Shown here: positions 293 to 19,151 of the stretch, piece by piece
Layout of the letters: every line of letters starts with the position of its first letter
How positions within the stretch are numbered: position 1 is the first letter of the stretch
From: a virus
Virus record (IMG/VR): IMGVR_UViG_3300018481_000038
Coordinates: 1-40,234 of that record
Strand: one strand, 5' to 3'
DNA: 40,234 bases
Notes under the pieces: model-generated
Databases searched by the model: none
What the model saw: the letters and a program-made list of their open reading frames with translations, nothing else
Told to the model about the DNA's origin: nothing
Translations under genes and position numbers: made by a program

Positions 293-613
293 ATGAGCAA
301 TAAGGTAATTGTCCACAAGGGTAGAACCAATGTCGTTCGGGTTAACTTGGGAATCGACGTTTCTGCTGACGTGATTTTCAGTGAAGTTCGTTCTGAACCA
401 GATCAAGATTCTGTCTTGTTGATGTCATGGCAAGTTGATTTTGAAACTGACGGCACAGATGGAATGTTAATTTTGACAGTGGACAATACTATCACAGCTC
501 AGATCGAACCCAGTAATGGTTGGATGGATCTCAAACGAGTTAGTGGTGGCGAGCCCATTTCTGTCTTTGATAAACCGCTTGAAGTTAGCTTCAGAGGAAC
601 GGTGACTGCATGA
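293..613 (+). CDS. Small beta-rich minor tail protein (LtfC-like fold possible)
   Basis: A 106-residue protein starting at an ATG after a GGAGATGAG site. The alternating hydrophobic pattern and the lack of long helices suggest a beta-sandwich. Small proteins of this kind (LtfC/Gp6-type) sit beside fibre genes in many phages of Gram-positive hosts; that match is from memory and only tentative. The stop overlaps the start of the next gene (ATGA), so the two are probably translationally coupled. Likely a virion component linking fibres to the tail tip. Confidence 0.6.
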   Translation: MSNKVIVHKGRTNVVRVNLGIDVSADVIFSEVRSEPDQDSVLLMSWQVDFETDGTDGMLILTVDNTITAQIEPSNGWMDLKRVSGGEPISVFDKPLEVSFRGTVTA

Positions 614-1017
614 CTAACTCCGTCGAAGTTGATTCGGACACTCAACTGATTCTTGTCAATCCTTCGGCGGAAACAGTTGAGATTCTTAACTCTGGTCCGC
701 AAGCGCTTGTTCTTGATCCGGCAGAGCATCCCATTCAAGTTATTAACGCGGGACCGCAAGGTCCTCCGGGTACTCCGGGCGGAGAAGGTCCACAAGGTCC
801 TCCCGGTGATGGTGTCCAAGCGCAGAGCATGACCGTCGAGTCACCTGGACCCGTGAGTATCTTTGAAATTTTACATCCGTATGACCACGATCCTTCTGTC
901 GAGATACGAGACACAGCCAACACGGTTTGTATGGCTCCTACAAGTTTTACGACAGGGAAAGTAATCGTCAACATCTCGCCGCTCAGCATGAGCTTGCGGG
1001 TAAAACTCACACCATAG
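610..1017 (+). CDS. Collagen-like minor tail protein
   Basis: A 135-residue protein. Residues about 1-48 form a short beta-rich N-terminal domain. Residues about 49-69 are a Gly-X-Y stretch (GPQGPPGTPGGEGPQGPPGDG-type triplets), which favours a trimeric collagen-like stalk. The C-terminal third is again beta-rich. Its N-terminal half resembles the 73-residue protein at 6691, including the INAG(P)xGP entry into the collagen stretch, so the two are paralogues. It overlaps the upstream gene by ATGA. Probably a trimeric fibre or connector in the adsorption apparatus. Confidence 0.75.
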   Translation: MTNSVEVDSDTQLILVNPSAETVEILNSGPQALVLDPAEHPIQVINAGPQGPPGTPGGEGPQGPPGDGVQAQSMTVESPGPVSIFEILHPYDHDPSVEIRDTANTVCMAPTSFTTGKVIVNISPLSMSLRVKLTP

Positions 1018-1024
1018 GAGACCC

Positions 1025-2173
1025 ATGGCTTCAATTCCATTCTTGGGTAGTCCGGATCTCGGTAATCTGGACATCCTCAACGCTGCTTTACAGAAACTGG
1101 CATCTGATCCTGGCTCTCCTGTTGAGGGTTTTATCTTTGCCAAGACCGGCGCAACAGATCGAGTTCGTGTCAGGCTTGACGGCGCGTGGAAAGATCTCGC
1201 ATTTACCTCGGACATCTCGGGTATTGGTGCTGGAACTGTCGGCACAACCGAGCTTGCTGATGACGCGGTTACGTATGCCAAGATTCAAGAGATGGCTGCG
1301 AACACGGTTTTGGCAAACACGACTGGTAGTTCAGCTAATCCCACCGGTATTACCAAAGCCGCGTTCATTACCTGGCTTGCTCTTGCTCTCGGTGACATCA
1401 CTGGCGACGGTGCTCTCGCGGCTAAGAACACGATTGCTACTGGTGACATCGATGACGCCGCGGTTACCGTTACCAAGATGGCCAACATGGCAGCCAACAC
1501 GGTTTTGGCCAACATTACCGGTGGTGCCGCGGCTCCGGTTGCCAACACTCTTGCTAACTTTAAGACTTGGCTTGCGCTGAGTCTCTCTGACATCTCTGGC
1601 GACGGCGCCCTTGCCGCGTTGAACACTGTTGGCACTTCGCAGATTGATGCTGACGCTGTTACCTACGCCAAGCTTCAGAACATTAGTGCTACGAGCCGAG
1701 TGCTTGGCCGTATCACTGCTGGTTCGGGCGATGCTGAGGAATTGACTGGTGCGAACATCCGTACCATTCTTGGTACCCTTGATGCCGATACCGTTGGTGG
1801 TCAGTCTGCTGCGGCGATTGTCACGTCTGCTGCGAACACGATTCGCAACGGTGCCGGTGCAGCGTATGACACGTTGATCGAGATTCAGGCTTTGCTTGAA
1901 GCTGATGACACTGCTGACGCGTTGATCTCTGCGGCTGTTGCCAACAAGAATGCCAAGGGTGTTGCCGCTGATCTTGGTACCGCGGCTGCCGACGCAGTTC
2001 ACAACCATGCACTTAATACTCGTGATGTCATTTGCCAGTTGGTTCGCAAAGCTGACTGGAAGCATGTCGAAGCTCCGTACACTATTACCGATGTTGACAA
2101 CGTGACTTGGAACCTTCCTGCTGCGCCAGCATCTGGCGAGTACCGGAGCATCATCATCCCAGCGGCGGCGTAG
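1025..2173 (+). CDS. Repeat-bearing tail fibre protein
   Basis: A 382-residue Ala/Thr/Asp-rich fibre protein. Residues about 72-250 hold two full repeats and one partial repeat of roughly 65 residues. Each repeat carries a segment like DDAVTYAKI followed by AANTVLAN and a SDISGDGALAA-like block, a layout typical of trimeric phage fibre shafts. The C-terminal 60 residues look like a separate beta-rich tip or attachment segment. The ATG lies 8 bases after the upstream stop, with GGAG in front. The next gene, the SGNH hydrolase, begins 4 bases after its stop, so fibre and enzyme are made together. Confidence 0.8.
   Translation: MASIPFLGSPDLGNLDILNAALQKLASDPGSPVEGFIFAKTGATDRVRVRLDGAWKDLAFTSDISGIGAGTVGTTELADDAVTYAKIQEMAANTVLANTTGSSANPTGITKAAFITWLALALGDITGDGALAAKNTIATGDIDDAAVTVTKMANMAANTVLANITGGAAAPVANTLANFKTWLALSLSDISGDGALAALNTVGTSQIDADAVTYAKLQNISATSRVLGRITAGSGDAEELTGANIRTILGTLDADTVGGQSAAAIVTSAANTIRNGAGAAYDTLIEIQALLEADDTADALISAAVANKNAKGVAADLGTAAADAVHNHALNTRDVICQLVRKADWKHVEAPYTITDVDNVTWNLPAAPASGEYRSIIIPAAA
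1238..1774 (+). repeat. About 65-codon fibre repeats
   Basis: Two full copies and one partial copy of a roughly 195-base unit inside the fibre gene. Shared protein landmarks are the DDA(A)VT(Y/V)xK(I/M) start, AANTVLAN, and the SGDGALAA block. The first two copies are the most alike; the third diverges after the K-L-Q position. Confidence 0.75.
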
Positions 2174-2176
2174 CCC

Positions 2177-4558
2177 ATGGCTGTCATCGATGTTCTTGGA
2201 GGAACTGAACAAGACGTCCTTGACCTCCAGGCTAAAGGTCATCCAGGTAACGCGAGCATTGATAGACGTCGTCTGTACATCAGTGATGGTGGGTTTGTCA
2301 GAGCAATTGACGTTGACGGATTTGATCAGTTCGACGTAGATCAAACAATTTTCAGTTATCGTGGTGCTGCTCGCAAATGGGTTTCTGGTTTGGGCGGTCG
2401 TACCGACGACAACCCAGCTATCTTTATCTGGTGGGGCGATTCAGTTACCGAGCTTATGTACGGCAACCCTCTGTATCGATTCAGAGAACGTATGGCTCGG
2501 TACAACGGAGGGCGCGTTTCTCCTGGCTGGATCTCTGCCGCACCACTTAGTAGTGATGTACTTTCGTTTGGTGGTGGAGGTGTTAACCTTCTTCATACTG
2601 AAGCATTCCGACTTAGTACTGGTTCTTATGGAGCTAGTGGTGGAACGCAAAACATTGCGATTGAAGCCGGACTTGCACTTTATGCCTTTCGTCTTGCCAG
2701 CGGTTCTGTACTTACTCTTTATCAAGATCCTAACAACGATGGTACTTGGACAGATCAGGTTGTTGCGTCGTTGGAGTGGGCTAAGGCTCACATTCATTAT
2801 ACCGCCTATGGCACAGACGCTTCTGTTGGATCACTTGAAGTTCGTGTTGATGGGGTTCTTGTAGCTACTATTAACGGTTATGATGCTGGTTTGGCCGGTG
2901 GTCAACTAGAATCTGGTCACGTACATCTTTGGGATTCAGCAGACATCTCAAGAGCACATACTATTACACTTACTGCTACTGGTGGTATATTTGATGTCGA
3001 AGGCATCTACTTCGCCCATCACGACGAGACTGTTCTGGTGTACAACGGTGGTAATGCTGGAGAAAAGTATGATGATTTCTTGGCTGTTCCGTCAGGTCAT
3101 CTCTTGCCCCCCGCTTATGAAGTTGCCGCATCTCTTCAGCCACATGCCGTCCAATTGGCATATGGTTTAAATGATTACGGAGATGCTGGTGGTGCACAAG
3201 ATTTGTATGATCAGATAGCAGAATCAGTTTCTGGCGTTAAGCTGCATGGCATAGATCCTTCTGTGGGAGTTCTTATTCCCTACGCTTCAGGCGCTCGTAC
3301 GGATTGGCCTGATTATGTTGTAGCAGCAAAGGATGCTTGTTCAGATAGTAGAGCTTGTTCTATTGATACTAGCTGGATGCTTGACGGACCTGCCAGCACC
3401 AGTGATCCACAGGATCTGGTTGAGACCGAAGGTGGTCAGCATCTTCATCTTTCCCAAGCTGGTGGTGAAGTCTGGGCTGACTTGGTTTCGCGATTCTGGT
3501 TGTGTGACAACATCAACTGGGCAGACGTTCTTGCCTATACTGCACAACGTTTGATTAATGATGAGCGTTCCGCGGAGTTTACTGGGTCGGGTTTTGAAGC
3601 TGGTTTAGTGGTTACCAAGCATGATGCTGGCAAAGCTTACTTGCTTCTTCGTGATGACAAGTATCCGACTGCAGCTAGCACCGGTTTGATGGGTGAGATC
3701 AGTCTTACCGGTCGCGGAGCTACGACGCTGTTGGGTGCTGGTGGTCTTAATGGACTTGTCGGATTCCGATTTCGCGCTGCTTCTACTTGGACTGATACTT
3801 CTGCCCCAGGTGACATTGAGTTTTTCAACTGTGCGGCTTCGTCGGTAACTGTTGCGGTTCGGATGACTCTGCTTGCCGGCGGTGGTCTCAAGTTTCCTGA
3901 GATGACTCCTCCTGCTGGTGCGGCGAATAACGCGATTATTGCTGGCCGCGACGTAAGTGGTAAGACTGAGCTTGGCGTTGTGATGCCTGATAGTTCATTC
4001 AGGCCAATTGTTGGCGACGACTATACTAATCCTCATATCAATCCTCGAATTACACTTCAACCAACCGGTTGGTTAGCAACAACGGTTGACCGTAGCTCTG
4101 GCACAATCACCAACGTTGCAACTCTTACCACGCAGAAGTTGTTTCTTGTTTCGATTGAGCTTCTTGCGGGTATGTTGGTTACGAACATTATATTCCACAT
4201 CGGTGCAACACAAGCGGCTGCACCAACTAACTGGTGGTTCGCTTTGTATGACAAGAATCGGGCATTATTGGGGCAAACAGCAAACCAAGGTACTACTGGT
4301 TCGGGATTGAATGTACCCGTGTCAAAAGCATTGAGTTCCGCATATTCTGTCACGGTTTCAGATTTGTATTACCTTGGGATTATGTTCCATGGTTCGACCA
4401 TGCCGACGTTGCTGTGTTCGTCGCCAAACGCGTTGGTATCTTCGATGGCTCCGATTTTACAAGGTAACACTGCCGATACGGGTTTGACTACTACTGCACC
4501 TAACCCTGCAGGAGCTATTACTTCTGGTAATACTCGTGCATATGCTGGCGTTTCATGA
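2177..4558 (+). CDS. Tail protein with SGNH/GDSL esterase domain
   Basis: A 793-residue protein with an SGNH-hydrolase core at about residues 80-440. I see the GDS nucleophile motif (WWGDSVTE, Ser89), a GLND block (Gly330-Asn332) and a final HLSQAG segment (His424) that would give the catalytic His. The Asp usually three residues before that His is not obvious (Gln421 there). Residues about 150-290 form an inserted beta-rich lectin-like segment. The C-terminal 350 residues are beta-rich and contain no motif I recognise. SGNH enzymes remove acyl groups, often O-acetyl, from glycans and lipids. Placed between fibre genes, this one probably de-acylates host surface polymer. Confidence 0.8.
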   Translation: MAVIDVLGGTEQDVLDLQAKGHPGNASIDRRRLYISDGGFVRAIDVDGFDQFDVDQTIFSYRGAARKWVSGLGGRTDDNPAIFIWWGDSVTELMYGNPLYRFRERMARYNGGRVSPGWISAAPLSSDVLSFGGGGVNLLHTEAFRLSTGSYGASGGTQNIAIEAGLALYAFRLASGSVLTLYQDPNNDGTWTDQVVASLEWAKAHIHYTAYGTDASVGSLEVRVDGVLVATINGYDAGLAGGQLESGHVHLWDSADISRAHTITLTATGGIFDVEGIYFAHHDETVLVYNGGNAGEKYDDFLAVPSGHLLPPAYEVAASLQPHAVQLAYGLNDYGDAGGAQDLYDQIAESVSGVKLHGIDPSVGVLIPYASGARTDWPDYVVAAKDACSDSRACSIDTSWMLDGPASTSDPQDLVETEGGQHLHLSQAGGEVWADLVSRFWLCDNINWADVLAYTAQRLINDERSAEFTGSGFEAGLVVTKHDAGKAYLLLRDDKYPTAASTGLMGEISLTGRGATTLLGAGGLNGLVGFRFRAASTWTDTSAPGDIEFFNCAASSVTVAVRMTLLAGGGLKFPEMTPPAGAANNAIIAGRDVSGKTELGVVMPDSSFRPIVGDDYTNPHINPRITLQPTGWLATTVDRSSGTITNVATLTTQKLFLVSIELLAGMLVTNIIFHIGATQAAAPTNWWFALYDKNRALLGQTANQGTTGSGLNVPVSKALSSAYSVTVSDLYYLGIMFHGSTMPTLLCSSPNALVSSMAPILQGNTADTGLTTTAPNPAGAITSGNTRAYAGVS

Positions 4559-4577
4559 TATTAGAAAGGATTAACCA

Positions 4578-5393
4578 ATGACATACGGTCCCCTTTCTAT
4601 GAAGGGTGCGTTTGATTTTGAGCAGCATATTCCAGGAACAATTGGTGTTCCACGAGCAGGTTTTGCTCGTTTGGGCGTTGATTCCAACCTTATTCTGAAG
4701 TGGATTGCTCCTGATGGAACGACATATCAGGTTGCTAGTAAGAATCAGCTTGATGCTCATATCGCTGAAGTTAATCCTTTTGAGCACACAGCATCTAAAA
4801 TTCAATCGACTGATGGTAATGTTCAAAGTGATTTAGATGCTTTGGATGCAAATAAAGCCGATAACGCTGGTATGGAGGCTGCTTTAAGGGCGGTTTCTTC
4901 TTCGCCAAACACGATAAATATTAATACTGCTGTAGCGGAATCGAATCTTCTTTCATTTACTTTGGCTGGTGGCGTGCTGGCACGCGATGGAGACATGATT
5001 ATTATCGAGGCGGCTGGCGATGTTCTTGCTAATAGCGGTTCACCAACTTGGCTTTGGAAGTTCAAGAGTGGTGCCATTGTAATGGATACACCCGCTACCG
5101 CGATGGCGATCAGCGGCAATCTTAGACGATGGAAATTCATTGCGACTATTCTCAGAACAACGGTTGCCTCTCAGATTATGTCTGCGAGTTTGTTGGTTTC
5201 TTTGCCTGTTGCTACGACAGATTTCAATGCCATTGATCCTCTGCATACCTTTGTTGGAAACTTGACTGATTTTGCTGCCACAGATTTCAATGGTAACACG
5301 GTTATTGCGTTGACGGTTCAGATGAGTGTCTCTAGTTCTGCCAATCGAACGCGCATGTATGGTTATAACGCCAGAAAGGTGAGGGCTGTCTAA
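4578..5393 (+). CDS. Minor tail protein with C-terminal beta domain
   Basis: A 271-residue protein preceded by an AGAAAGGA site. The N-terminal 100 residues include a short alpha-helical segment with regularly spaced hydrophobics (about 60-100), followed by a beta-sandwich-like C-terminal domain resembling receptor-binding or baseplate upper-protein tips. No catalytic motif is visible. The stop overlaps the sulfatase start (TAATG), so the two are almost certainly co-translated, which ties the sulfatase to the virion operon. Likely a fibre or spike component. Confidence 0.7.
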   Translation: MTYGPLSMKGAFDFEQHIPGTIGVPRAGFARLGVDSNLILKWIAPDGTTYQVASKNQLDAHIAEVNPFEHTASKIQSTDGNVQSDLDALDANKADNAGMEAALRAVSSSPNTININTAVAESNLLSFTLAGGVLARDGDMIIIEAAGDVLANSGSPTWLWKFKSGAIVMDTPATAMAISGNLRRWKFIATILRTTVASQIMSASLLVSLPVATTDFNAIDPLHTFVGNLTDFAATDFNGNTVIALTVQMSVSSSANRTRMYGYNARKVRAV

Positions 5394-6679
5394 TGCCTGA
5401 TAATATTCTCCTCATCATGATGGATGATATGCGTTACGATGAGTTGCAGTACATGACCAAGACCAGAGAACTTCTTGGTGGACAGAACGGAACAGAGTAC
5501 ACTTGGTGTCATTGCAACACTCCGCTTTGTTCTCCGACGCGTGCAGCTATCATGACTGGGCAATTGTCGAAGCATCATACAATTGTTACCAACTCAATGA
5601 ACACCGCGCCTCTCTATGCCGATAGTACCTTTGTTGCGATTGGACTTCAGGGGTATAATGTTGGACTTGTGGGGAAGTTTTTTACCGACTTGGCCGCAGA
5701 GACCATGAAGGCTGGCTTTGATTATTGGAGAGCCCTCAAGGGCGAAACTGCTTATGGTATTTATGACTCAGTTGATTACATTATTACCGATGGTATCAAT
5801 AACTTTTTCCCCGACAAGTATCAAGATCATTATTTGACTGGGCAGGCTGTCAACTTCATGCGCGATACTGAGCCATGGTGTTTGTGGTACTGTCCTACTT
5901 CTAATCACTGGCCGTGGCAGGATCCACCTAACCATCAAGATGAGTATCTCTTCAAGGACTTCACTATCCCAGTAGAGACAGATAGATCTGATCAACCATC
6001 ATTCATTCAGTCGCTTTCGAATCCTACTGAAGAAGAAAAACAGTTCCTTATCAAAGATGAGCGAGCCCGGCTTCGTGAATTGCAGTCGGCTGACGATTCC
6101 GTTGCAGCCTTTGTGAATCTTATTGAAGCTACTGGTATGATGGATCATACCACAATTATTTTCACGAGTGACAACGGCAACATGATGGGTGAACACGGTA
6201 TCTTCGGGCGTTTCGCTGATTCTACTGTCATCAACAAGAATGTTCCTTATTCACAAGCTATGCGAGTTCCATTGTTGATCCGCAGTCCTTTGTTTCCAAA
6301 GGGTGAAAAGGTGAGTGTTCCTACGCAACACGCGGACATTGTTACCACTATGTTGGCTAGAGCTGGAGCAAATGCTCAGCGTCCAAACCAAGCGGGTTCA
6401 AGTTTGTTGAACATTGCCGTCAACCCGGCAGGGTTCGCAAACCGTGGCCTACTCGGTTATCGGGATACTGCTGGAGATGGTCTTACATTGCCTTCCGCGG
6501 ACATGTGGACTACAGCTACTCACAGACTTGTCAGATGGCAAGGACAAAGTCCTCCAAACACCTATCAGCTATTTGATCTTATTGCTGATCCTGGAGAGAA
6601 CACCAACATAGCATATAGTAATGTAGGACTTCGTAACAGCATGGAAACAGCCATGCAAACCGCTCTAAATGCGCCATAG
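5393..6679 (+). CDS. Type I sulfatase encoded in the tail-fibre operon
   Basis: A 428-residue protein with the complete arylsulfatase/alkaline-phosphatase-superfamily layout. N-terminal metal ligands are in NILLIMMDD (Asp11/Asp12). The signature CSPTRAAIMTGQ places Cys46 as the residue a formylglycine-generating enzyme would oxidise and Arg50 as its partner. A GKF segment lies near residue 104, and a late TSDNG metal site is followed by a lysine and RVPLLIRSP. The family hydrolyses sulfate esters. No signal peptide is seen, so activity outside the cell would come from packing in the virion. It needs the host maturase for Cys46. Overlapping start (TAATG) and flanking tail genes argue for a virion enzyme against sulfated surface glycans; a metabolic role is less likely. 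Confidence 0.9.
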   Translation: MPDNILLIMMDDMRYDELQYMTKTRELLGGQNGTEYTWCHCNTPLCSPTRAAIMTGQLSKHHTIVTNSMNTAPLYADSTFVAIGLQGYNVGLVGKFFTDLAAETMKAGFDYWRALKGETAYGIYDSVDYIITDGINNFFPDKYQDHYLTGQAVNFMRDTEPWCLWYCPTSNHWPWQDPPNHQDEYLFKDFTIPVETDRSDQPSFIQSLSNPTEEEKQFLIKDERARLRELQSADDSVAAFVNLIEATGMMDHTTIIFTSDNGNMMGEHGIFGRFADSTVINKNVPYSQAMRVPLLIRSPLFPKGEKVSVPTQHADIVTTMLARAGANAQRPNQAGSSLLNIAVNPAGFANRGLLGYRDTAGDGLTLPSADMWTTATHRLVRWQGQSPPNTYQLFDLIADPGENTNIAYSNVGLRNSMETAMQTALNAP

Positions 6680-6690
6680 AAAGGAATGAC

Positions 6691-6912
6691 ATGGCTGGCG
6701 AAATCAATGTAGTTTCTAGGACTCAGATCATTGTGGTTCATCCTGGATCCAATTCAATTGCTATTATCAATGCTGGCCCGCCAGGTCCCGGCGGTACAGG
6801 TGGACCCGGTCCTGCTCCTGAAGCAGAGTTGATCGGTGACATGCACGTTACTCAAGTTACCACGCTGACGGACATCTATGGCGAGCAGCACGTCACTACC
6901 CTTACTCCTTAG
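6691..6912 (+). CDS. Short collagen-like tail protein
   Basis: A 73-residue protein with an AGAAAGGA site in front. Residues 1-28 form a beta-like cap (QIIVVHPGSNSIAIINAG), residues about 29-41 a short Gly-Pro-rich Gly-X-Y run, and the rest a short beta tail. It is a shortened paralogue of the 135-residue protein at 610, sharing the cap-to-collagen transition. Probably a trimerising connector between fibre proteins. It sits between the sulfatase and the 477-residue tail protein. Confidence 0.7.
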   Translation: MAGEINVVSRTQIIVVHPGSNSIAIINAGPPGPGGTGGPGPAPEAELIGDMHVTQVTTLTDIYGEQHVTTLTP

Positions 6913-6920
6913 GAGAACTC

Positions 6921-8354
6921 ATGGCAACCTTAGAAGCGCGTCTTGCTCCTACTTGGGGAACGCTTGCTGAACTGAACGCGTCAACTATCATTCTTAGGAG
7001 AGGTGAGCGTTGGTTCCGTATTGATGCTCCTGTTCTCAGTGATCCAGGTAATCCCTTTGATGGCCTTCCTAATCCTGCTATGCAGTGGAAGACTGGTGAC
7101 GGAACTAAACGTTTCAACCAGATTGCCAACTATGATCCAATTGGCGTTGGCGGTACTTCGGGTGGTCCTGGTTCAGTTGAAGTTTCTCCGCATAGTGTTT
7201 TGGCCAACCTTACTGCTGAGCCTGGACCAGGGGATTCACTTAGAATTACTTTGCAGCCAGGAGATGATCCCGATACCACAAACACGCTTTTGGCTGAATT
7301 GGGTATTGGAGATACTTCCGGAATTTCTGCCATGCTTGGTGATGTTTCGGTAGAGGAAGTAGCTACTGGTGGCTTAAGAGGCGTATTTGATAGGTTTGCG
7401 GGTAGGACGGCTACTCCCCCTATTGCTGTTACTGGCACTCTTACAAATGGTAGTGCTACTATTACAGTAGGTTCGCCTCTTGATTCCAGAATTGGTATTA
7501 ATGCGAGAGTGTTTGTGCTTTCTGGTGGGACAGGTCTTGCAAACCCAGCATACATTAACGCAATTGCAACAGACCGTTTGAGTTTTGCTGTCACAAGCAC
7601 GATGTTTGTGCTTACGCCAGGTAGTGGTACTCCGTTACTTGCTACTGCCCCTGGTAGTCGAAGTCTTGAAATCAGGGACCCCAATGCTAATGCGTTTGGG
7701 ATAAACTTCGATGGTATTCCGAAACAAAACGTTTACAACGGTCTTTATGATTGGCGATCGACTCCAAACCCCCTTCAAAGTACTAGCATTACTGGTGAAA
7801 CGACTCAATCTAGAGTTCTTAATGGTGTTCTCCATTGGAGAGCGGCACAGGTTAATAGTGGTGCCTGGGAACAAATTACCGGAGCACAAGATCTTCTGCT
7901 CATTACTCGCCAGATTGTTGCTCCTGTAGGTCCATCTTCGCATCATACCTGGGCTACTTTGCCCGCGGCTGGTACTGCTGGAGCTGAATTTCTTTCAGAA
8001 ACTAATGGTCGTCACCGATTCAAATTGGTCATCCCAGACGATTACTATACTCAATTCATGTTTGGTTTGGATAATCTTATTGTCGCTGGCACAAGCGTCT
8101 CTACTATGTGGGTTGAGTTCCTTGATCCTGTTGATTCCATTTGGAAAGACATCACAACCAGCCGGGTTACTGTTTCGCTTAATACACCAATTGATATTTG
8201 GAAAGAAAGTGCTGTTGGTACACTTCACGCTGCAGCAAAGACGGCCGCAGCCCTTAGCCCAAGCCGTAGTGTTTGGGGTCGAATCATGGGAACAACGACT
8301 GGAGCAGCTACTGGTAACCCGCAATTCACTAGCGCTTGGACACTACTCAAATGA
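6921..8354 (+). CDS. Minor tail / fibre protein
   Basis: A 477-residue protein. The N-terminal 70 residues form a small domain, followed by a Gly-rich hinge (about residues 73-85) and a SVLANLTAEPG segment that recalls the fibre shaft repeats at 1238-1774. The C-terminal 250 residues are beta-rich, with no catalytic motif I recognise. Start ATG follows TTAGGAGAA; the stop overlaps the next start (ATGA), coupling it to the glycosidase gene. Likely part of the adsorption apparatus; exact role unknown. Confidence 0.7.
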   Translation: MATLEARLAPTWGTLAELNASTIILRRGERWFRIDAPVLSDPGNPFDGLPNPAMQWKTGDGTKRFNQIANYDPIGVGGTSGGPGSVEVSPHSVLANLTAEPGPGDSLRITLQPGDDPDTTNTLLAELGIGDTSGISAMLGDVSVEEVATGGLRGVFDRFAGRTATPPIAVTGTLTNGSATITVGSPLDSRIGINARVFVLSGGTGLANPAYINAIATDRLSFAVTSTMFVLTPGSGTPLLATAPGSRSLEIRDPNANAFGINFDGIPKQNVYNGLYDWRSTPNPLQSTSITGETTQSRVLNGVLHWRAAQVNSGAWEQITGAQDLLLITRQIVAPVGPSSHHTWATLPAAGTAGAEFLSETNGRHRFKLVIPDDYYTQFMFGLDNLIVAGTSVSTMWVEFLDPVDSIWKDITTSRVTVSLNTPIDIWKESAVGTLHAAAKTAAALSPSRSVWGRIMGTTTGAATGNPQFTSAWTLLK

Positions 8355-11131
8355 CTCCTCCTCTTAAACGAGGCGGCATCCCTATGAAGCGCGGAGGCGT
8401 TCGCCGTAAGCGTGGGATTGCTGCTCCAATCGGTTTGTCTATTTCAACTACCAGCCTGGGCGACATGGTTGAACTTCAGGCTATTCCTTCTCCTGGTTTT
8501 CCTGTCGTTGCTGTTGGTGGTGTGTTTGCCACCTACGTTTGGGAGAAGGTTAGTGGTCCTTCTTGGTTAAGTATAAGTGGATCTGGTTCCACCGGAAGAG
8601 TTCTTGGTACGCCGCCTTCAGATGCCGCAGGCGATATTGTGCTTCGCGTTAGGGTTTCACAGCCTTCTACCGGTCAAAGCTTTGAGCAAGATCTTGCGGG
8701 AACTGTAGAAGATGTTCCAACTGGACCTATTCTTGATATTAGCACTGACACTCTTGGTTCTATGACTGAGGGTGAAGAAATTCCTGCTCCTGGGTTCGCG
8801 GTAGTCGCTGTTAATGGTACTGGACCCTATCAGTGGTCTAAGGTGTTGGGGCCAAGCTGGCTTATTATCAGTGGTACAGGAGCTACGGCTCGTATCACTG
8901 GAACACCTCCTGTTGGTTTCTCTGGTGACACTAGTTTCTGGGCGAAGGTCATCGATTCTCTTGGCCAAGAGAAAGCGAAGGTTCTTACTGGACACGTTGA
9001 TCCAGATACTTCAGTGTTGACCATTACTAGTACCGACCTTGGCGATATGGTTGAAACTGAAGCTATTCCTGGGTTCGGCTTTCCTGTTCAAACCGTCAAT
9101 GGTGTGGCTCCGTTTACTTTCGCTAAGATTAGTGGTGCTGCTTGGCTTAGTGTTGTCGGTGGTGAAAGTTCTGGTAATGCTGGTATCGTGGGAACCCCAC
9201 CGGCAGGTAGTGCTGGTACTGCTAGCATCAATGTTCGAGTCACAGACTCAACTGGTGCTACAGATACGCAAGTTCTAAGCGGAACCGTTACTGAGCAACC
9301 GACGAGTGATTTCGCAGGGTACTTCGATCGCCGTATTGGGTTCACTAAAAACCTTGCCGGAGAAGCTCAACTTGAATCGACTTGTGATCTTATTGCCAGT
9401 GGTACTGGTTCAAATCGTATTGTCGGCGGTTTGATTCGTTTCGATTGTGGTGGTCAGCAGATGGGCGGCAGTAACGTTGCTCAACTTCCTTCATCTTATG
9501 AAAGTCTTATGAAGGCCGTTAGGGCTAAAGGTGTGTTTACTGCTCCGATTCTAGGTTATACCAACAAAATCGATCAACGTCGCCTTACCTTTCAAGGTTC
9601 GATTCATGCGGCGAAATATGTTACTTGGAATGGTCTTGTTGGGAACGGTATTCATGCTCAACTCGGTGTTGCTGCGATTACGGTAAACGGGACCAACTAT
9701 CCCGCGCTTAGGCCAAGCGCAGCCAACAATTATTTTGGCGGGCCTAGTGGCGATGGATGGTATGGAGACCCGGGTGGTGGCGTAAGTGTTCATGGACCTG
9801 GCATTCCTTATCTTCAGAATCAAGCCTGTAGTATTCAAAGCGGATCTAATATTTTAACCACTACTTTGCCAACCGGTAACAACCCAGGGGCCAACTGTGG
9901 GAACGGTTGGGTTGGACAGAAAATTGAATGCTCTGGTGTTCCTGCCGGGACTACTGTTACCGCGGTTATAGATGGAACTCATCTCAGAATGAGTGCCAAT
10001 GCCAACGCTACCGGTTCGAGAACCTGTATCATTGGAATAGATCAGGGGGCAGCAGGAGATCCGCCAAGACCATTCTTGGTCAAATCACACGCTACGGGTT
10101 CGGTTGGACTTAAGGTTTGGAATCCTAGTCGAGGCACTCCTCCTGTTGAAACCACAGAATACCAAGATCATTTGAATGTCGGTGCAAGTGGTACGTATTA
10201 CATCGGTGGAACAAATCAGGCACTTGATCATAAGATTTGGTATGATGATCCGCGTGATTATCAGAAGATTGTTCACGAAGTTGTTAAACAAGGAAATGCC
10301 TTTACACCAAAACCAATTAAACGAGCAGAAGTTTGGAACGAAATGCCATGGGGTATGGGTGTTCGGCCTGTTGTTGATATTGCTCGCGCTGGTCGGATGC
10401 TTTGCCATGCTTATGTTGGTGTCAAACTAGCGGATCCTTCGGTGATTGTGTGTTTGCCTTCTTCTGGCCATGTTGCAGACGATTACAGTGGAAACCAGTT
10501 CATGAACAACCCTGACTGGTGTGAAGCACTGCTGAACTTCTGGTACAACATTGATCCTAACTATTTTAGTGACTTGCTTGCTGCAAATAGTTTGACTAAA
10601 ACCAGAGCAGTCAAGATTCCAGGTGATGAATTTGCTGCTCACCCTTACTCTAATAATCACCTCAGCCCAACTGATACAGGCATGGGGCAATGTGCCAACG
10701 TTTTTAACCAGATTGGTGAAGCGTCGGGTGGCGAATATTTACCCATTGCTCCTACCGAGCAGGGCGTTAAGTGGGATCGCAATGCTGGTGGAAGTGGCGT
10801 AGGTGCTTGGTTAAATGCGCAAGGCGGTTTCACTGCCTACAATAACTTCTTCAAGCTTTTGTGGGGCGATATTCCTTGGTCACACAATAGGCTTCTCGAA
10901 GGTCCTGGCGCTGGCACAGAAAAGGCAACCGGTTCGACAAACACAGCTACTACAATTACTTTGGCAACGCGTCGTGCCAAGATGAAGCAGGTTTTCAGTT
11001 GTGCAACCATGTTCGCGATTAGAGAGCCTGGTGACGCTAGCGGTAAGTATGGAATTCGTTGGGGATCTGATGGTTCGCAGAAGTACATTATTGACACCAA
11101 TGATCCGATGCATTCCCTTCGTACGCTGTAG
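8351..11131 (+). CDS. Tail protein with three Ig-like repeats and a clan-A-like glycoside hydrolase domain
   Basis: A 926-residue protein from the ATG that overlaps the previous stop (ATGA); an in-frame TTG lies 15 bases earlier. A strongly basic leader (about residues 6-22) precedes three putative-Ig (He_PIG-like) repeats at about 27-120, 126-216 and 222-313. The rest resembles a TIM-barrel glycosidase: EVWNEMPWG supplies an Asn-Glu pair (Asn663-Glu664), the usual acid/base motif of clan GH-A, and PTEQGVK (Glu803) could be the nucleophile. The enzyme would cut a glycan backbone, while the Ig repeats hold it on the tail. With the SGNH and sulfatase proteins it completes a three-enzyme set. 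Family number and substrate cannot be told by eye. Confidence 0.75.
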   Translation: MTPPLKRGGIPMKRGGVRRKRGIAAPIGLSISTTSLGDMVELQAIPSPGFPVVAVGGVFATYVWEKVSGPSWLSISGSGSTGRVLGTPPSDAAGDIVLRVRVSQPSTGQSFEQDLAGTVEDVPTGPILDISTDTLGSMTEGEEIPAPGFAVVAVNGTGPYQWSKVLGPSWLIISGTGATARITGTPPVGFSGDTSFWAKVIDSLGQEKAKVLTGHVDPDTSVLTITSTDLGDMVETEAIPGFGFPVQTVNGVAPFTFAKISGAAWLSVVGGESSGNAGIVGTPPAGSAGTASINVRVTDSTGATDTQVLSGTVTEQPTSDFAGYFDRRIGFTKNLAGEAQLESTCDLIASGTGSNRIVGGLIRFDCGGQQMGGSNVAQLPSSYESLMKAVRAKGVFTAPILGYTNKIDQRRLTFQGSIHAAKYVTWNGLVGNGIHAQLGVAAITVNGTNYPALRPSAANNYFGGPSGDGWYGDPGGGVSVHGPGIPYLQNQACSIQSGSNILTTTLPTGNNPGANCGNGWVGQKIECSGVPAGTTVTAVIDGTHLRMSANANATGSRTCIIGIDQGAAGDPPRPFLVKSHATGSVGLKVWNPSRGTPPVETTEYQDHLNVGASGTYYIGGTNQALDHKIWYDDPRDYQKIVHEVVKQGNAFTPKPIKRAEVWNEMPWGMGVRPVVDIARAGRMLCHAYVGVKLADPSVIVCLPSSGHVADDYSGNQFMNNPDWCEALLNFWYNIDPNYFSDLLAANSLTKTRAVKIPGDEFAAHPYSNNHLSPTDTGMGQCANVFNQIGEASGGEYLPIAPTEQGVKWDRNAGGSGVGAWLNAQGGFTAYNNFFKLLWGDIPWSHNRLLEGPGAGTEKATGSTNTATTITLATRRAKMKQVFSCATMFAIREPGDASGKYGIRWGSDGSQKYIIDTNDPMHSLRTL
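8429..9289 (+). repeat. Three tandem Ig-like (He_PIG) domains
   Basis: Three repeats of about 92 codons within the glycosidase gene. Each shows a LGxM(V/T)E-x-E/Q-IP start, a GFxV-x-VNG strand, a W-K(V/I)-x-G-x-x-WL core and a GTPP turn. They probably form an extended stalk. Confidence 0.8.
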
Positions 11132-11143
11132 AAAGGATTAGCC

Positions 11144-11323
11144 ATGAGCGATATTCCAGAATACAGAACCGGAGAACTTCCAGACATTGATCCAACCATT
11201 GGCTTACTTGTTAACACTTCTGATTTGTCTAAACCAACGCCTGAAGATGGCAACCAACCAGAAGAAGCTGTTCAAGTTCCGTCAGAATTAATTGAACCTG
11301 AGGAAGTGCAATGGCAGGACTAA
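11144..11323 (+). CDS. Small acidic protein before the lysin gene
   Basis: A 59-residue protein starting at an ATG 12 bases after the glycosidase stop, with a clear GAAAGGATT ribosome site. It is rich in Glu, Pro and Asp, lacks hydrophobic segments and looks disordered. Its last 13 bases overlap the start of the CHAP gene in another frame, which suggests coupled translation. I do not recognise it. It could be a lysin partner or a small virion protein. Confidence 0.65.
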   Translation: MSDIPEYRTGELPDIDPTIGLLVNTSDLSKPTPEDGNQPEEAVQVPSELIEPEEVQWQD

Positions 11324-12012
11324 CAAGAAATCAAACTGTTAACCGTGCTTTGTCTTTCAGAGGTGTTTCTGAAAGTCCTCCGTATTCTAATCGAGTTATG
11401 TTCTCTGCTTGGTATGGTTTTGTTGGGCCGTGGTGTGCGATGTTCGTGAGTTATGTTCTGTATCATTCAGGACATCCACTTCCGATTCGTACAAGGAAGG
11501 GATTTGCTTATTGTCCGGATGTTGTCAACTGGGCTCAAGCTAATGGTCGATGGTTTACTAATCGATCTCAAGCTAAGTCTGGTGATTTAATTCTGTTCAG
11601 TTTCGGTGGTCGAAGGGCAGACCACATTGGTATGGTTGTTGGTCGTCTTTCTGATGGTCGTATGCATACCATTGAAGGCAATACGGGCTCGAACAATCGA
11701 GACGGTGGATCAGTTCAAGAACGTTATCGAAATTCAGGAATTATTGGTTTTGTTCGTCTTGATTATCCCTCGACGCCTCCGACCCCGCCCCCACCGCCAG
11801 AACCTGAAATCAAGGAGTCAGACATGTTGTTTTTCTTTAACTACGAAGGGGCAACACGAACCTTCATGAGCGATGGTTTCCATTATCGAGAGGTTAGTGA
11901 CAAGGATGCGGACGTTTACACATTCTTGTATGTAAATCTACATGGAAAGCAGATCCCTAAGGTCACTCTCGACGAGAAGCAGGTAAAACGAATGGTCAAA
12001 CTTGGGCCATAG
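11311..12012 (+). CDS. CHAP-domain peptidoglycan hydrolase (endolysin or tail lysin)
   Basis: A 233-residue protein. Residues about 10-150 are a CHAP domain: the catalytic Cys is in GPWCAMFVSY (Cys42), the His in ADHIGMVVG (His105), and the polar third position is in IEGNTG (Glu122/Asn124). CHAP enzymes cut peptidoglycan as amidases or endopeptidases. A Pro-rich linker (about 153-168) leads to a 60-residue C-terminal domain, perhaps wall-binding, that I cannot assign. It lies directly after the adsorption genes and 18 kb before the holin candidate, so it could be the endolysin or a virion-borne lysin used at entry. The start has a GAGGAA site overlapping the upstream acidic gene. Confidence 0.85.
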   Translation: MAGLTRNQTVNRALSFRGVSESPPYSNRVMFSAWYGFVGPWCAMFVSYVLYHSGHPLPIRTRKGFAYCPDVVNWAQANGRWFTNRSQAKSGDLILFSFGGRRADHIGMVVGRLSDGRMHTIEGNTGSNNRDGGSVQERYRNSGIIGFVRLDYPSTPPTPPPPPEPEIKESDMLFFFNYEGATRTFMSDGFHYREVSDKDADVYTFLYVNLHGKQIPKVTLDEKQVKRMVKLGP

Positions 12013-12028: not shown

Positions 12029-12361
12029 GTGGCAAAGCGTAAAAGTCGTAGACCGGCTTCTACAGAAGAAGGTAGAGAGGGTCAGCTAGTCTCCCTTGCC
12101 ATCGATTTGGCTGAGAAACAACTCGTAGAAGGAACCGCGACCTCACAAGTTATCACCCATTACTTAAAATTGGGTTCTACGAGAGAAAAGTTGGAGCAAG
12201 AGCGTCTTAAACGAGAAAATGAGCTTCTAAATTCCAAAGTAGAGATGATGGCTTCAGCTAAACGAGTTGAAGAGCTATACGCCGCTGCTTTGAGTGCCAT
12301 GAAGTCCTATGCTGGTCAAACGGATGACATGGATGAAATTGAAGAGGTTTATGATGATTAG
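12029..12361 (+). CDS. Small terminase-subunit-like protein
   Basis: A 110-residue protein beginning at a GTG preceded by GAAGGGAGG. It is almost wholly helical: a central block with LAEKQLVEGTATSQVITHYLKLG followed by a heptad-rich REKLEQERLKRENELLNSKVE coiled coil is broken here into its visible parts, at about residues 25-90. Short proteins of this form precede the HNH nuclease and terminase in many Gram-positive siphophages and are thought to be DNA-recognition subunits of packaging or terminase accessory factors. The role is inferred from position and helical character. The acidic tail runs into the HNH gene start. Confidence 0.6.
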   Translation: MAKRKSRRPASTEEGREGQLVSLAIDLAEKQLVEGTATSQVITHYLKLGSTREKLEQERLKRENELLNSKVEMMASAKRVEELYAAALSAMKSYAGQTDDMDEIEEVYDD

Positions 12362-12977: not shown

Positions 12978-13331
12978 ATGGAGCAAAGCATTTTAAAGAG
13001 CACTAAGAAGATTCTGGGTCTTGACGCAGAATACACCCCTTTTGATTTGGACGTCATTACCCATATTAATGCAGCTTTCTCCGTTCTTGATCAATTGGGT
13101 CTGGATCCTGCTGGCGGATTCTCAATTGAGGATGCTACTACAGATTGGTCTGAGTATCCTGTTTCGCCATCACAACTCAACCTTGTTAAGACGTATGTTT
13201 ATCTAAAAGTAAGAATGGCGTTTGATCCTCCTACCTTTTCTTTTCATATCGATGCTGCAAACGAACAGATCAAAGAATACGAGTGGCGGTTAAATGCTGC
13301 TAGAGAAGTCGCCTTAGAGGAGGTTCCGTGA
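12978..13331 (+). CDS. Head-tail connector-like protein (gp6-type)
   Basis: A 117-residue protein with a GGAGGTGACTC site. It is helical, with landmarks LGLDAEYTPFDLDVITHIN and NLVKTYVYLKVRMAFDPP and a final YEWRLNAAREV helix. This matches the gp6-like head-tail adaptor family known from siphophages of Gram-positive bacteria, which forms a ring under the portal. It is unusual that it lies before the large terminase rather than after the capsid gene. The stop overlaps the GTG start of the next gene. Confidence 0.8.
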   Translation: MEQSILKSTKKILGLDAEYTPFDLDVITHINAAFSVLDQLGLDPAGGFSIEDATTDWSEYPVSPSQLNLVKTYVYLKVRMAFDPPTFSFHIDAANEQIKEYEWRLNAAREVALEEVP

Positions 13332-13714
13332 CAACAGTTGATGAACTTATTATTGAACATTACGGAGTCAAGGGCCAGAAGTGGGGTGTCCGTCGAAAGC
13401 GCGGATCTGGCGGCAGGGTTAGTGATGATTTCCGAGATTCAAGAGAAATTACACGTAAGCCAGTTTCACAGCTTAGTAATCAGGAAATTAAGAAAGCTAA
13501 TGAGCGTTTGAATCTTGAGCAGAACTTTAATCGTATGAATTCAACTAAGGTACAAAAAGGACATTCTAAAACCAAAGAATTACTTGCTGTCGCAGCAACA
13601 GCGGCTACTATGTACAATATGGTTAACAGTCCTGCAGGCCAAGCAGCGATTAGAGCAGGTAAGGCATTCATCGGTCCTAGTCTTAAGGCTGGTGTTAGAA
13701 CGATCGGTAAGTAA
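13328..13714 (+). CDS. GVKGQKWGVR-tagged head-region protein 1
   Basis: A 128-residue protein starting with GTG that overlaps the previous stop and has AGAGGAGG upstream. It opens with an acidic helix followed by EHYGVKGQKWGVRRKRG at about residues 9-25, a short tag seen near the N-terminus of many uncharacterised phage proteins encoded among head genes. The middle is charged and helical, and about residues 85-110 form an Ala-rich hydrophobic segment that may be a membrane helix. A second protein at 15545 has nearly the same tag. No established function is known to me; capsid assembly or delivery into the prohead is a guess. Confidence 0.75.
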   Translation: MTTVDELIIEHYGVKGQKWGVRRKRGSGGRVSDDFRDSREITRKPVSQLSNQEIKKANERLNLEQNFNRMNSTKVQKGHSKTKELLAVAATAATMYNMVNSPAGQAAIRAGKAFIGPSLKAGVRTIGK

Positions 13715-17111: not shown

Positions 17112-19151
17112 ATGGAAGCAGATTTCAGCGGCTACGCCACTAAGGCGGGGCTCAAGTGCTCCGACGGTCGGACCATCATGCCTGATGCATTCAAACATCA
17201 GGATAAGATGCAGGTTCCTCTTGTCTGGCAGCATGGTCACAATGATCCGGAGAATGTTCTCGGTCATGCGATCCTTGAGGCTCGACCAGACGGCGTTTAC
17301 GCCTATGGCTTCTTCAATGGTACCGAGAAAGCAAAGTCTTCTCGTGAGCTTCTGGAGCACAAAGACATCAACATGATGTCTATTTGGGCCAACGATCTCA
17401 TTGAGAGGGCTGGACGCGTTCTTCATGGAGCAATCCGTGAGGTTAGTCTTGTCCTTTCTGGTGCCAACCCAGGTGCGATCATCGAGAACGTTACTATTCG
17501 TCACGCAAATGATGACGAAACCGTTCTTGAGGACGAGGCTATCATCAAGACTGGTCTCGAAATTGAGCTTGGTCATTCTTCTACTAATGATGATACTGAG
17601 GATACCGAAGATAAGACGGAAGAAAAGACTGAGGACAAGGAAAAGAAGACCGAAGAGAAGACCGACGAAGACGACAAAGAACTCGAACTTCAGCACGCTG
17701 AAGATGACGAGAAGACTGTCAAAGACGTCTACGATTCAATGTCGGATGAGCAGAAGCAGGTGCTTCACTATTTGGTTGGGGTTGCCTCTGATAATGGTGA
17801 TTCTGTTAAGCAGGACAACCTCGATGACAAAACTGATGATGACAAAACCGATGAAACCGATTCGAAAGGTAACGAAATGAAGCACAACGTCTTCGAGACG
17901 GGTGGCGAAACTGCAGCCAAGGCTGAGGTGACGCTGTCTCACGATGACATGACCGCCATCTTTGCTGATGCAGCCAAGCCCGGTAACACGCTCAAGGAAG
18001 CTGTCGAGAGCTATGCGCTTTCTCACGGCATCGAGGATATTGATCTCCTCTTCCCTGACCACAAGAACCTCTCAAACACGCCTGAGCTTTGGGGCCGCCG
18101 CGTTGAGTGGGTTTCGACTCTTCTTGCTGGTGTTCGAAAGAGCCCGTTCAGCCGGATCAAGACCATGTCTGCTGATCTGACGGTGGCTGAGGCTCGCGCC
18201 AAGGGTTACATCAAGGGCAGCCTGAAGAAGGAAGAGTTCTTCCGGGTGTCGAAGCGCGTTACGCAGCCGACGACCATCTACAAGAAGCAGAAGCTCGATC
18301 GCGACGACATGGTCGACATCACTGACTTCGACGTTGTGGCCTGGCTCAAGGCTGAGATGCGTCTCATGCTCGATGAGGAGCTTGCTCGCGCCATTCTCGT
18401 TGGTGATGGCCGTGCGGTGGACGATGAAGACAAGATCAATGAGGACAGCATTCGTCCCATTGCCAGTGATCACGAGGTTTACACCACTACGATCAATGTC
18501 AACATCGACGACGCCAGCTCCTCGATTTCCGAGGCTCTCGACGCGATGGTTCTGAATCGTAAGGAGCTTCGCGGCTCTGGTCTTCCGACCTTGTTCACGA
18601 CCGAGACTTACATCGCTAAGTTCCTCCTGCTCAAGGATGGTATGCAGCGCAAGATGTACAAGAGCCTCGATGAGGTTGCTAGTGATATGCGTGTTGCCTC
18701 GATCGTTCCGGTCGAGATCCTTGAGGAGTACACCGATATTGTCGCCATTCTTGTGAACCTCAACGATTACGTCGTTGGAGCCACCGCTGGTGGTCAGGTT
18801 TCCATGTTCGACGATTTCGATATCGACTACAACCAGTACAAGTACCTGATTGAGACCCGGTGCTCCGGTGCTCTCACCAAGCTGAAGTCGGCTATGGTTG
18901 TTCGCAAGGTTGCTGGTACTGCGGTTCTGGTTGCTCCTGCTGCGCCTGCTTTCGATGGTGATGGAATCACGATCACCAACCAGACTGGTGTGGTCTACCG
19001 TAACGCCGCTACTGACGCTGTGATGAACAACGCCGGTTCGCCGTACGCCGTTGCTGACGGTGAGACTGTTGGTGTGAAGGCTGAGCCTGCTTCGGGTTAC
19101 TACTTCGCGTCCAGTGAGAACGATGAGTGGGAATTCACTGGAGAGGCCTAA
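17112..19151 (+). CDS. Fused prohead protease and major capsid protein
   Basis: A 679-residue fusion. Residues about 1-150 are an HK97-type prohead protease: catalytic His in VPLVWQHGHNDP (His41/His43) and Ser in REVSLVLSGANPGA (Ser112). Residues about 150-255 form a very acidic, Lys/Glu/Asp-rich region that could serve as scaffold. Residues from about 256 are the HK97-fold capsid protein, with WGRRVEWVSTLLAGV and a long MLDEELARAILVGDGR helix region. The last 60 residues add a beta-rich domain, perhaps a surface knob. An in-frame ATG at 17877 with its own ribosome site may also give free capsid subunits. C-ending codons are commoner in the capsid part than in neighbours, as expected for a very abundant protein. 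Confidence 0.93.
   Translation: MEADFSGYATKAGLKCSDGRTIMPDAFKHQDKMQVPLVWQHGHNDPENVLGHAILEARPDGVYAYGFFNGTEKAKSSRELLEHKDINMMSIWANDLIERAGRVLHGAIREVSLVLSGANPGAIIENVTIRHANDDETVLEDEAIIKTGLEIELGHSSTNDDTEDTEDKTEEKTEDKEKKTEEKTDEDDKELELQHAEDDEKTVKDVYDSMSDEQKQVLHYLVGVASDNGDSVKQDNLDDKTDDDKTDETDSKGNEMKHNVFETGGETAAKAEVTLSHDDMTAIFADAAKPGNTLKEAVESYALSHGIEDIDLLFPDHKNLSNTPELWGRRVEWVSTLLAGVRKSPFSRIKTMSADLTVAEARAKGYIKGSLKKEEFFRVSKRVTQPTTIYKKQKLDRDDMVDITDFDVVAWLKAEMRLMLDEELARAILVGDGRAVDDEDKINEDSIRPIASDHEVYTTTINVNIDDASSSISEALDAMVLNRKELRGSGLPTLFTTETYIAKFLLLKDGMQRKMYKSLDEVASDMRVASIVPVEILEEYTDIVAILVNLNDYVVGATAGGQVSMFDDFDIDYNQYKYLIETRCSGALTKLKSAMVVRKVAGTAVLVAPAAPAFDGDGITITNQTGVVYRNAATDAVMNNAGSPYAVADGETVGVKAEPASGYYFASSENDEWEFTGEA
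17865..19151 (+). CDS. Internal start: free major capsid protein (residues 256-679)
   Basis: An AAAGG ribosome site at 17865-17869 stands 7 bases before an in-frame ATG at 17877. The resulting 424-residue product begins with MKHNVFETGG and contains the whole HK97-fold capsid part but not the protease or acidic spacer. The site matches the AAAGGA type used elsewhere in this genome. The coordinates here include the ribosome site. This is inference from sequence; proteolysis of the full fusion could give a similar product. Confidence 0.55.
   Translation, partial: KGNEMKHNVFETGGETAAKAEVTLSHDDMTAIFADAAKPGNTLKEAVESYALSHGIEDIDLLFPDHKNLSNTPELWGRRVEWVSTLLAGVRKSPFSRIKTMSADLTVAEARAKGYIKGSLKKEEFFRVSKRVTQPTTIYKKQKLDRDDMVDITDFDVVAWLKAEMRLMLDEELARAILVGDGRAVDDEDKINEDSIRPIASDHEVYTTTINVNIDDASSSISEALDAMVLNRKELRGSGLPTLFTTETYIAKFLLLKDGMQRKMYKSLDEVASDMRVASIVPVEILEEYTDIVAILVNLNDYVVGATAGGQVSMFDDFDIDYNQYKYLIETRCSGALTKLKSAMVVRKVAGTAVLVAPAAPAFDGDGITITNQTGVVYRNAATDAVMNNAGSPYAVADGETVGVKAEPASGYYFASSENDEWEFTGEA

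Follow-up and report, generated by a model that had tools for sequence, protein, structure and literature searches.

Phage receptor-binding proteins with SGNH domains deacetylate the glycans of their hosts (PMC13123978, PMC9569702). Tail deacetylases of this type are known, as are depolymerases, whereas a sulfatase within a fibre operon is undescribed in the literature searched; nor did that literature hold any report of a tail-linked or receptor-binding phage sulfatase, or of an actinobacteriophage sulfatase. Viral sulfatase genes have been listed among auxiliary metabolic genes (PMC10029852). According to a 2026 paper, cyanobacteria are the only bacteria from which sulfated polysaccharides have been reported, apart from an unverified prediction for an actinomycete (PMC13390465). 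CXPXR is the motif recognised by the aerobic formylglycine-generating enzyme (FGE), an enzyme that S. coelicolor possesses (PMC4505483).

The window considered here (the whole stretch of DNA that was analysed, 40,234 nucleotides) places a sulfatase gene, a probable SGNH esterase gene and a candidate glycosidase gene in a single fibre locus (Table 1). It is a linear record of a soil-type virus with a recognisable siphophage gene set: terminase, portal, head maturation protease, major tail protein, tape measure, minor tail protein and DNA polymerase/primase. Its named DNA matches are Arthrobacter, Gordonia and Streptomyces phages, relatives that point to an actinobacterial host, and a related terminase is encoded in at least 600 IMG/VR stretches.

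Table 1. Features of the fibre locus, with window coordinates and the evidence for each
Feature	Coordinates	Strand	Evidence
Conserved gene, 106 aa; left boundary of fibre slot in relatives	293..613	+	48-66% identity, 10 related loci
Anchor copy 1, 135 aa: short N-terminal anchor motif (..VINAGPQGP) and collagen-like repeats	610..1017	+	alignment with N-termini of relatives' fibre genes
Fibre protein, 382 aa, DUF5907 repeats	1025..2173	+	PF19264 E=7e-7, phrog_8309 E=2e-12; related protein in L068
Probable SGNH/GDSL esterase fused to C-terminal phage domain, 793 aa	2177..4558	+	PF13472, motifs
SGNH block I, GDS (aa 87-89)	2435..2443	+	sequence; in PF13472 match only after insert removal
Insert of about 164 aa separating SGNH blocks I and II (aa 119-282)	2531..3022	+	deletion raises PF13472 score
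SGNH block III, GLND (aa 330-333)	3164..3175	+	sequence, PF13472 match aa 307-429
SGNH block V, HLHLS (aa 422-426)	3440..3454	+	sequence
C-terminal phage domain (aa 610-785)	4004..4531	+	in most of 47 contigs, a short stand-alone protein
Putative fibre/shaft protein, 271 aa	4578..5393	+	position and look of sequence
Type I (S1) sulfatase, 428 aa, a bare catalytic domain	5393..6679	+	PF00884, phrog_19870, AF2, Foldseek PDB
CSPTR formylglycine signature (aa 46-50; C46, R50)	5528..5542	+	sequence, alignments
Anchor copy 2, 73 aa, with collagen-like stretch	6691..6912	+	L002 92% identical; relatives' fibre-gene N-termini 37-48%
Putative fibre protein, 477 aa, without family match	6921..8354	+	L002 87% identical, dN/dS 0.10
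Ig-like domains and WNE/HPY/TEQG domain of about 600 aa, candidate glycosidase, 931 aa	8336..11131	+	He_PIG E=1e-7, motifs
Small domain within the 600-aa domain, resembling phage virion/decoration domains	9821..10045	+	PDB 8eci decoration protein E=0.012; L003 virion-type ORF E=4e-4
WNE (aa 667-669), candidate acid/base Glu	10334..10342	+	sequence, invariant in L002
HPY (aa 769-771)	10640..10648	+	sequence, invariant in L002
TEQG (aa 807-810), candidate nucleophile Glu	10754..10765	+	sequence, invariant in L002
CHAP endolysin, right edge of slot	11311..12012	+	PF05257 E=9e-11 (Pfam), PHROG endolysins

The fibre slot and its relatives

A first-pass annotation of this DNA had picked out the three enzyme-like genes, and their ORFs, order and coordinates prove correct; the motifs that it named were all located (Table 1), as were the collagen-like genes of the region, at 610-1017 and 6691-6912. 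Its description of the genes as joined by overlapping starts and stops holds for three junctions (613/610, 5393/5393 and 8354/8351), the remaining ones being gaps of 3-19 nt. Promoter and terminator scans gave no signal above chance level.

From the 106-aa gene to the gene at 12029 the slot spans 11.7 kb in the window, as against mostly about 0.7-5.6 kb in relatives with both ends visible. In relatives it holds collagen-type fibres as well as further fibre-like genes, one with an S74 chaperone (Peptidase_S74), and the fibre genes are often headed by an anchor, M..EINV.SRTQ.I.V.P.S..VSIINAGP.GP. Comparison with these relatives marks it as a hypervariable fibre slot. The anchor occurs twice in the window, each time heading a small gene, with copy 1 the more divergent (30% identical to copy 2), and from the alignment the region looks like two successive fibre sets with a duplicated anchor. 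The PHROG tail-fibre matches of the first anchor gene run through its collagen part, while the 271-aa protein at 4578-5393 has no family match in Pfam or PHROG searches. A position in the fibre locus, with an anchor in common with fibre proteins, is expected of virion-borne polysaccharide-modifying enzymes and is found here. Upstream of the slot in one relative, an 891-aa protein (L066:985-3657) matches phrog_4291, which is named 'RNA-dependent RNA polymerase'; genes of similar size occur in L070, L099, L119 and L095.

A second contig (L002, IMGVR 3300037070_001683) begins inside the sulfatase gene and then keeps the gene order of the window through terminase, so that the sulfatase and the protein with the WNE motif stay together in at least two related phages; because of where it begins, it is uninformative on the SGNH gene. 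Identity to the window is 77% for the sulfatase C-terminus, 92% for the anchor, 87% for both the 477-aa protein and the WNE protein, and 90% for the endolysin. Values of dN/dS are 0.05-0.10 for the fibre-side genes and the endolysin, dS being saturated for the sulfatase fragment, and the genes downstream of that fragment are under purifying selection where dS can be estimated. A reading of the three genes as spurious ORFs is rejected, both on these ratios, for those genes that L002 allowed to be measured, and on the family matches. Elsewhere in the two contigs, small proteins flanking the terminase gene carry HYGVKGQ(K/R)WGVR near their N-termini (window 13328-13714; L002:6798-7229 and 9060-9326), both flanking proteins having been seen in L002 and the left one read in the window. 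A head maturation protease/capsid fusion of 679 aa (window 17112-19151) has a long acidic T/E/D/K-rich linker that differs between the two.

A type I sulfatase between fibre genes

By family and predicted fold, the protein at 5393-6679 is a genuine type I (S1) sulfatase with a near-complete active site, as the first-pass annotation had proposed, and the match is far above chance. It scores 119.6 bits with PF00884 (Pfam; curated cut-off 25, E=2.2e-34), and it matches phrog_19870 (PHROG) at E=3e-25 and 57 PDB sequences at E<=0.001. The C/S-x-P-x-R signature is present as C46-S-P-T-R50, and D11, D12, K95, H172, D260, N261 and K282 align with conserved columns or known active-site positions; these residues we take to be metal ligands and the catalytic Lys/His set. 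The His of GKWH, found in many sulfatases, is replaced by F97 (GKFF), and two other viral-contig sulfatases, from L137 and L138, likewise lack it (GKWING, GKYING). An AlphaFold (AF2) model built from 11 sequences has a pTM of 0.80 and a mean pLDDT of 69; the loops at 98-143 and 264-289 are poorly modelled. Its top Foldseek match in the PDB is BuS1_11 (E=6.3e-21, TM 0.74), which indicates a sulfatase fold; the top seven include BT4656, BT3177 and Bacple_01701 and are mainly S1_11 6-O-sulfatases, a weak hint, at 17-19% identity, of a 6-O-sulfo substrate.

No gene for a formylglycine-generating or maturation enzyme was found in the 40,234-base record, so formylglycine formation would depend on the host. 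Because the protein is catalytic domain throughout, with no fibre or attachment domain, it is the position of its gene that suggests a location on the tail.

Phage sulfatases are rare though precedented, and the novelty here is the fibre-operon setting. PF00884 was found in none of 49 related records, many of which are fragments (the partial sulfatase of L002 was not picked up). In BFVD there are seven sulfatase-fold matches at E<=0.001, all giant-virus-type by name, and no caudovirus sulfatase at that threshold. An exact-pattern search for relatives found none in viral or genome contigs; with a diverse alignment, 15 sulfatase loci were found. A few other IMG/VR contigs carry sulfatase genes, examples being L137, L138, L142 and L143, and the phrog_19870 profile matches L138 at E=4e-28 and L142 at E=8e-56. 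This PHROG, labelled 'unknown function', is by profile a sulfatase family (window 5393-6679, L138:7902-9284, L142:5485-6891). L142 comes from a contractile-tailed phage that has both tail sheath and tube, its sulfatase gene lying between portal and head-protease genes, and L143:2872-4278 is a closely similar gene. Three faecal 'Bacteriophage sp.' records (MT835657, MT836250 and MT835799; L133, L134 and L136) were rejected as precedents, being bacterial polysaccharide-utilisation DNA, and such records are a trap for phage-sulfatase claims. A Klebsiella match among the phage-collection tblastn results, whose origin was judged for those opened, was also set aside, as it lies in a host flank with a sulfatase maturase.

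The SGNH-type protein

The protein at 2177-4558 is a probable SGNH esterase. Intact, it matches PF13472 weakly (E=0.004-0.015), and the match begins after block I. With the insert removed, the score rises from 18.1 to 25.7 bits and the match covers positions 3-175 of 178 (E=1.8e-5), the boundaries having been chosen by the analyst and a single deletion scored; all scores (16.2-25.7 bits) are under the curated cut-off of 32.9. Blocks I, II, III and V occur in order, as GDS, an N-A-G-E-K region, GLND and HLS. That order was reached by 29 of 20,000 shuffles and by none of 727 other large ORFs, with a pattern written post hoc from the sequence itself. The catalytic Asp (DxxH) three residues before the His is replaced by Gln (QHLH); a Ser-His dyad is a possible alternative to the triad in esterase families. 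The earlier assignment to this family is therefore upheld by the nearly full-length match of the insert-free protein, tempered by the sub-threshold score and the Asp to Gln change.

The protein also matches a tail-protein family, phrog_15881, at E=0.006. No relatives of its N-terminal part were found in viral contigs with 8-residue patterns, and the gene was found only on the window contig. PF13472 was likewise found in none of the 49 related records, though the search would probably miss a domain interrupted as it is here. The C-terminal phage domain (NWWFALYD) is widespread: at L003:6005-6571 it directly follows a capsid-like gene, and in the window it forms the C-terminus of a fibre.

The WNE protein

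Translation of the third protein more likely begins at the ATG at 8351, in an ATGA overlap, than at the TTG at 8336. Its 600-aa domain carries, in order, RFDC, WNE, HPY and TEQG; 9 of 20,000 shuffles reached this order, a weak test in that the regular expression was written post hoc from the sequence. In clan-A glycosidases, strands 4 (NE) and 7 each carry a Glu at their end, and WNE and TEQG occur here in the corresponding order. The protein as a whole shows a dN/dS of 0.09 against L002, with the best-conserved stretch (aa 701-765; 98.5%, dN/dS 0.005) between WNE and HPY and the least conserved part (74%) in the central insert.

The 600-aa domain matched no glycoside hydrolase family in Pfam (E<=10) or PHROGs (E<=1), the whole protein had no NCBIfam match, and a PDB sequence search gave no match to the presumed barrel. 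No usable further relatives were found in viral contigs, genome contigs, phages, plasmids or PDB sequences; the single extra match to the pattern (L152) was a wrong-frame chance match. An AF2 model, from the window and L002 sequences only, has a pLDDT of 28.5. Of the clan-A-like glycosidase seen in the first pass, then, the motifs hold up and L002 conserves them, while support from families, PDB sequences and fold did not follow; a Clan-A glycosidase is a hypothesis only, drawn from the motifs.

Interpretation of the locus

The reading preferred here, with a probability of roughly 50%, is that of an expanded, two-set fibre slot in which a sulfatase and an SGNH esterase would remove decorations from the host glycan. 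The siphophage, a relative of Arthrobacter and Streptomyces phages, would have here its receptor-binding/fibre slot, grown to about 11 kb and holding two fibre sets, each under a short anchor gene (610-1017 and 6691-6912): the first a fibre with an SGNH domain, the second a large Ig-domain protein with a possible glycosidase in its C-terminal 600 aa, with the free-standing S1 sulfatase between them. This reading draws on the sulfatase and SGNH matches, the slot and anchors shared with relatives, the virion-type domains (the C-terminal domain of the SGNH protein and the decoration-like insert of the WNE protein), the conservation in L002 and the known SGNH receptor-binding proteins. Against it stand the bare catalytic domain of the sulfatase, its GKFF and its dependence on host maturation, the Gln, sub-threshold score and single-contig occurrence of the SGNH protein, and the negative family, sequence and fold results for the glycosidase. 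During production, a host enzyme would oxidise Cys46 of the sulfatase to formylglycine. The fibres would then bind the polysaccharide of the next host, and the sulfatase and SGNH esterase would strip sulfate and acyl groups, after which either the tail would bind or a backbone-cleaving domain would act. The first-pass annotation had envisaged a tail able to de-acylate, de-sulfate and cut a decorated polysaccharide. Of this, a sulfatase and an SGNH-type domain within the fibre locus are supported, and the proposed cutting step comes from motifs. One tail tool kit is plausible, with an acylated, sulfated host glycan as its prediction.

If the sulfatase is on the virion, it would imply a sulfated surface glycan on the host, for which cyanobacteria are the sole bacterial record according to PMC13390465, and it would be a phage entry enzyme activated by a maturation enzyme of the host. 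It would also allow a cheap assay, the arylsulfatase activity of virions.

Another possibility, a tentative one, is that the SGNH and WNE proteins are on the virion and the sulfatase is free cargo, either released at lysis to desulfate extracellular polymer for the freed phage or serving intracellular sulfate gain. Its bare catalytic domain would fit such a role, as would the auxiliary metabolic listing of viral sulfatase genes (PMC10029852) and the position of other viral-contig sulfatases outside fibre loci (between portal and protease genes in L142 and L143, among non-tail genes in L144 and L147). Against this, the gene has fibre genes on both sides and a 1-nt overlap, and L002 keeps it beside the anchor.

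The preferred reading of a decoration-removing fibre slot also has a bolder form, which seems unlikely: three tail enzymes acting in turn on one glycan (desulfation, deacylation, backbone cleavage), in a lineage of presumably actinobacterial hosts with sulfated surface polysaccharide. If true, it would amount to a sulfatase kit carried on the virion and would speak indirectly for sulfated polysaccharides beyond cyanobacteria.

It is quite unlikely that the enzyme-like domains are mainly binding modules, the SGNH and WNE folds being inactive and acting as receptor binders in the manner of lectins. The Asp to Gln change could be read in this way, and so could the WNE domain, which has no family match and is surrounded by Ig and decoration-like domains; but the SGNH Ser, Asn and His are kept, as are both candidate Glu of the WNE protein (in L002 too), and the active site of the sulfatase is nearly complete. 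Misassignment of the sulfatase within the alkaline phosphatase superfamily, with phosphate or phosphonate esters (e.g., of teichoic-acid-like polymers) as the substrate in place of sulfate, is improbable: promiscuity is common to the superfamily, the lower-ranked Foldseek matches include phosphonate monoester hydrolases, and lipoteichoic acid synthase and YejM are weak NCBIfam matches, but CSPTR is the formylglycine signature, carbohydrate sulfatases are the best structural and sequence matches, and the top NCBIfam scores are those of sulfatase models.

Comparison with known systems

Among related soil siphophages with anchor-plus-collagen fibre proteins (L052, L060, L068 and L091), the genomic slot and the N-terminal anchor are common with the window; in these the anchor usually forms part of a single fibre protein, whereas in the window it heads separate small genes, twice, and a sulfatase has been added. 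The sulfatases of L137, L138, L142 and L143 are 22-26% identical to that of the window and share the phrog_19870 profile where scanned. None was seen in a fibre operon like that of the window: those of L142 and L143 lie between portal and protease genes, and that of L138 is beside a protein of unknown function.

The window sulfatase has the alkaline-phosphatase-superfamily fold, the C-x-P-x-R-type site (of the Ser type in the aligned Bacteroides relatives) and the putative metal ligands of BuS1_11 (7lha), BT4656 (5g2v) and BT3177 (7p24), with Foldseek E-values of 6e-21 to 1e-19. It differs from the S1_11 enzymes in its low identity (17-19%), shorter length (428 aa), lack of a signal peptide and of the GKWH His, and phage fibre context. 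With Clan-A (GH-A) glycoside hydrolases, the WNE protein has WNE, HxY and TExG in the same order, a resemblance of motifs, with no profile, PDB-sequence or fold match between its 600-aa domain and those enzymes.

The SGNH protein has a parallel in phage G7C gp63.1, Possum gp66 and Klebsiella prophage receptor-binding proteins, which similarly have an SGNH domain in a tail-fibre protein. No close sequence relation was found, and the window protein has its 164-aa insert, the Asp to Gln change and another C-terminal phage domain. Those proteins strip acyl groups from the host glycan (PMC9569702, PMC13123978); in the window it is the genes that suggest the same may be done, beside a sulfatase.
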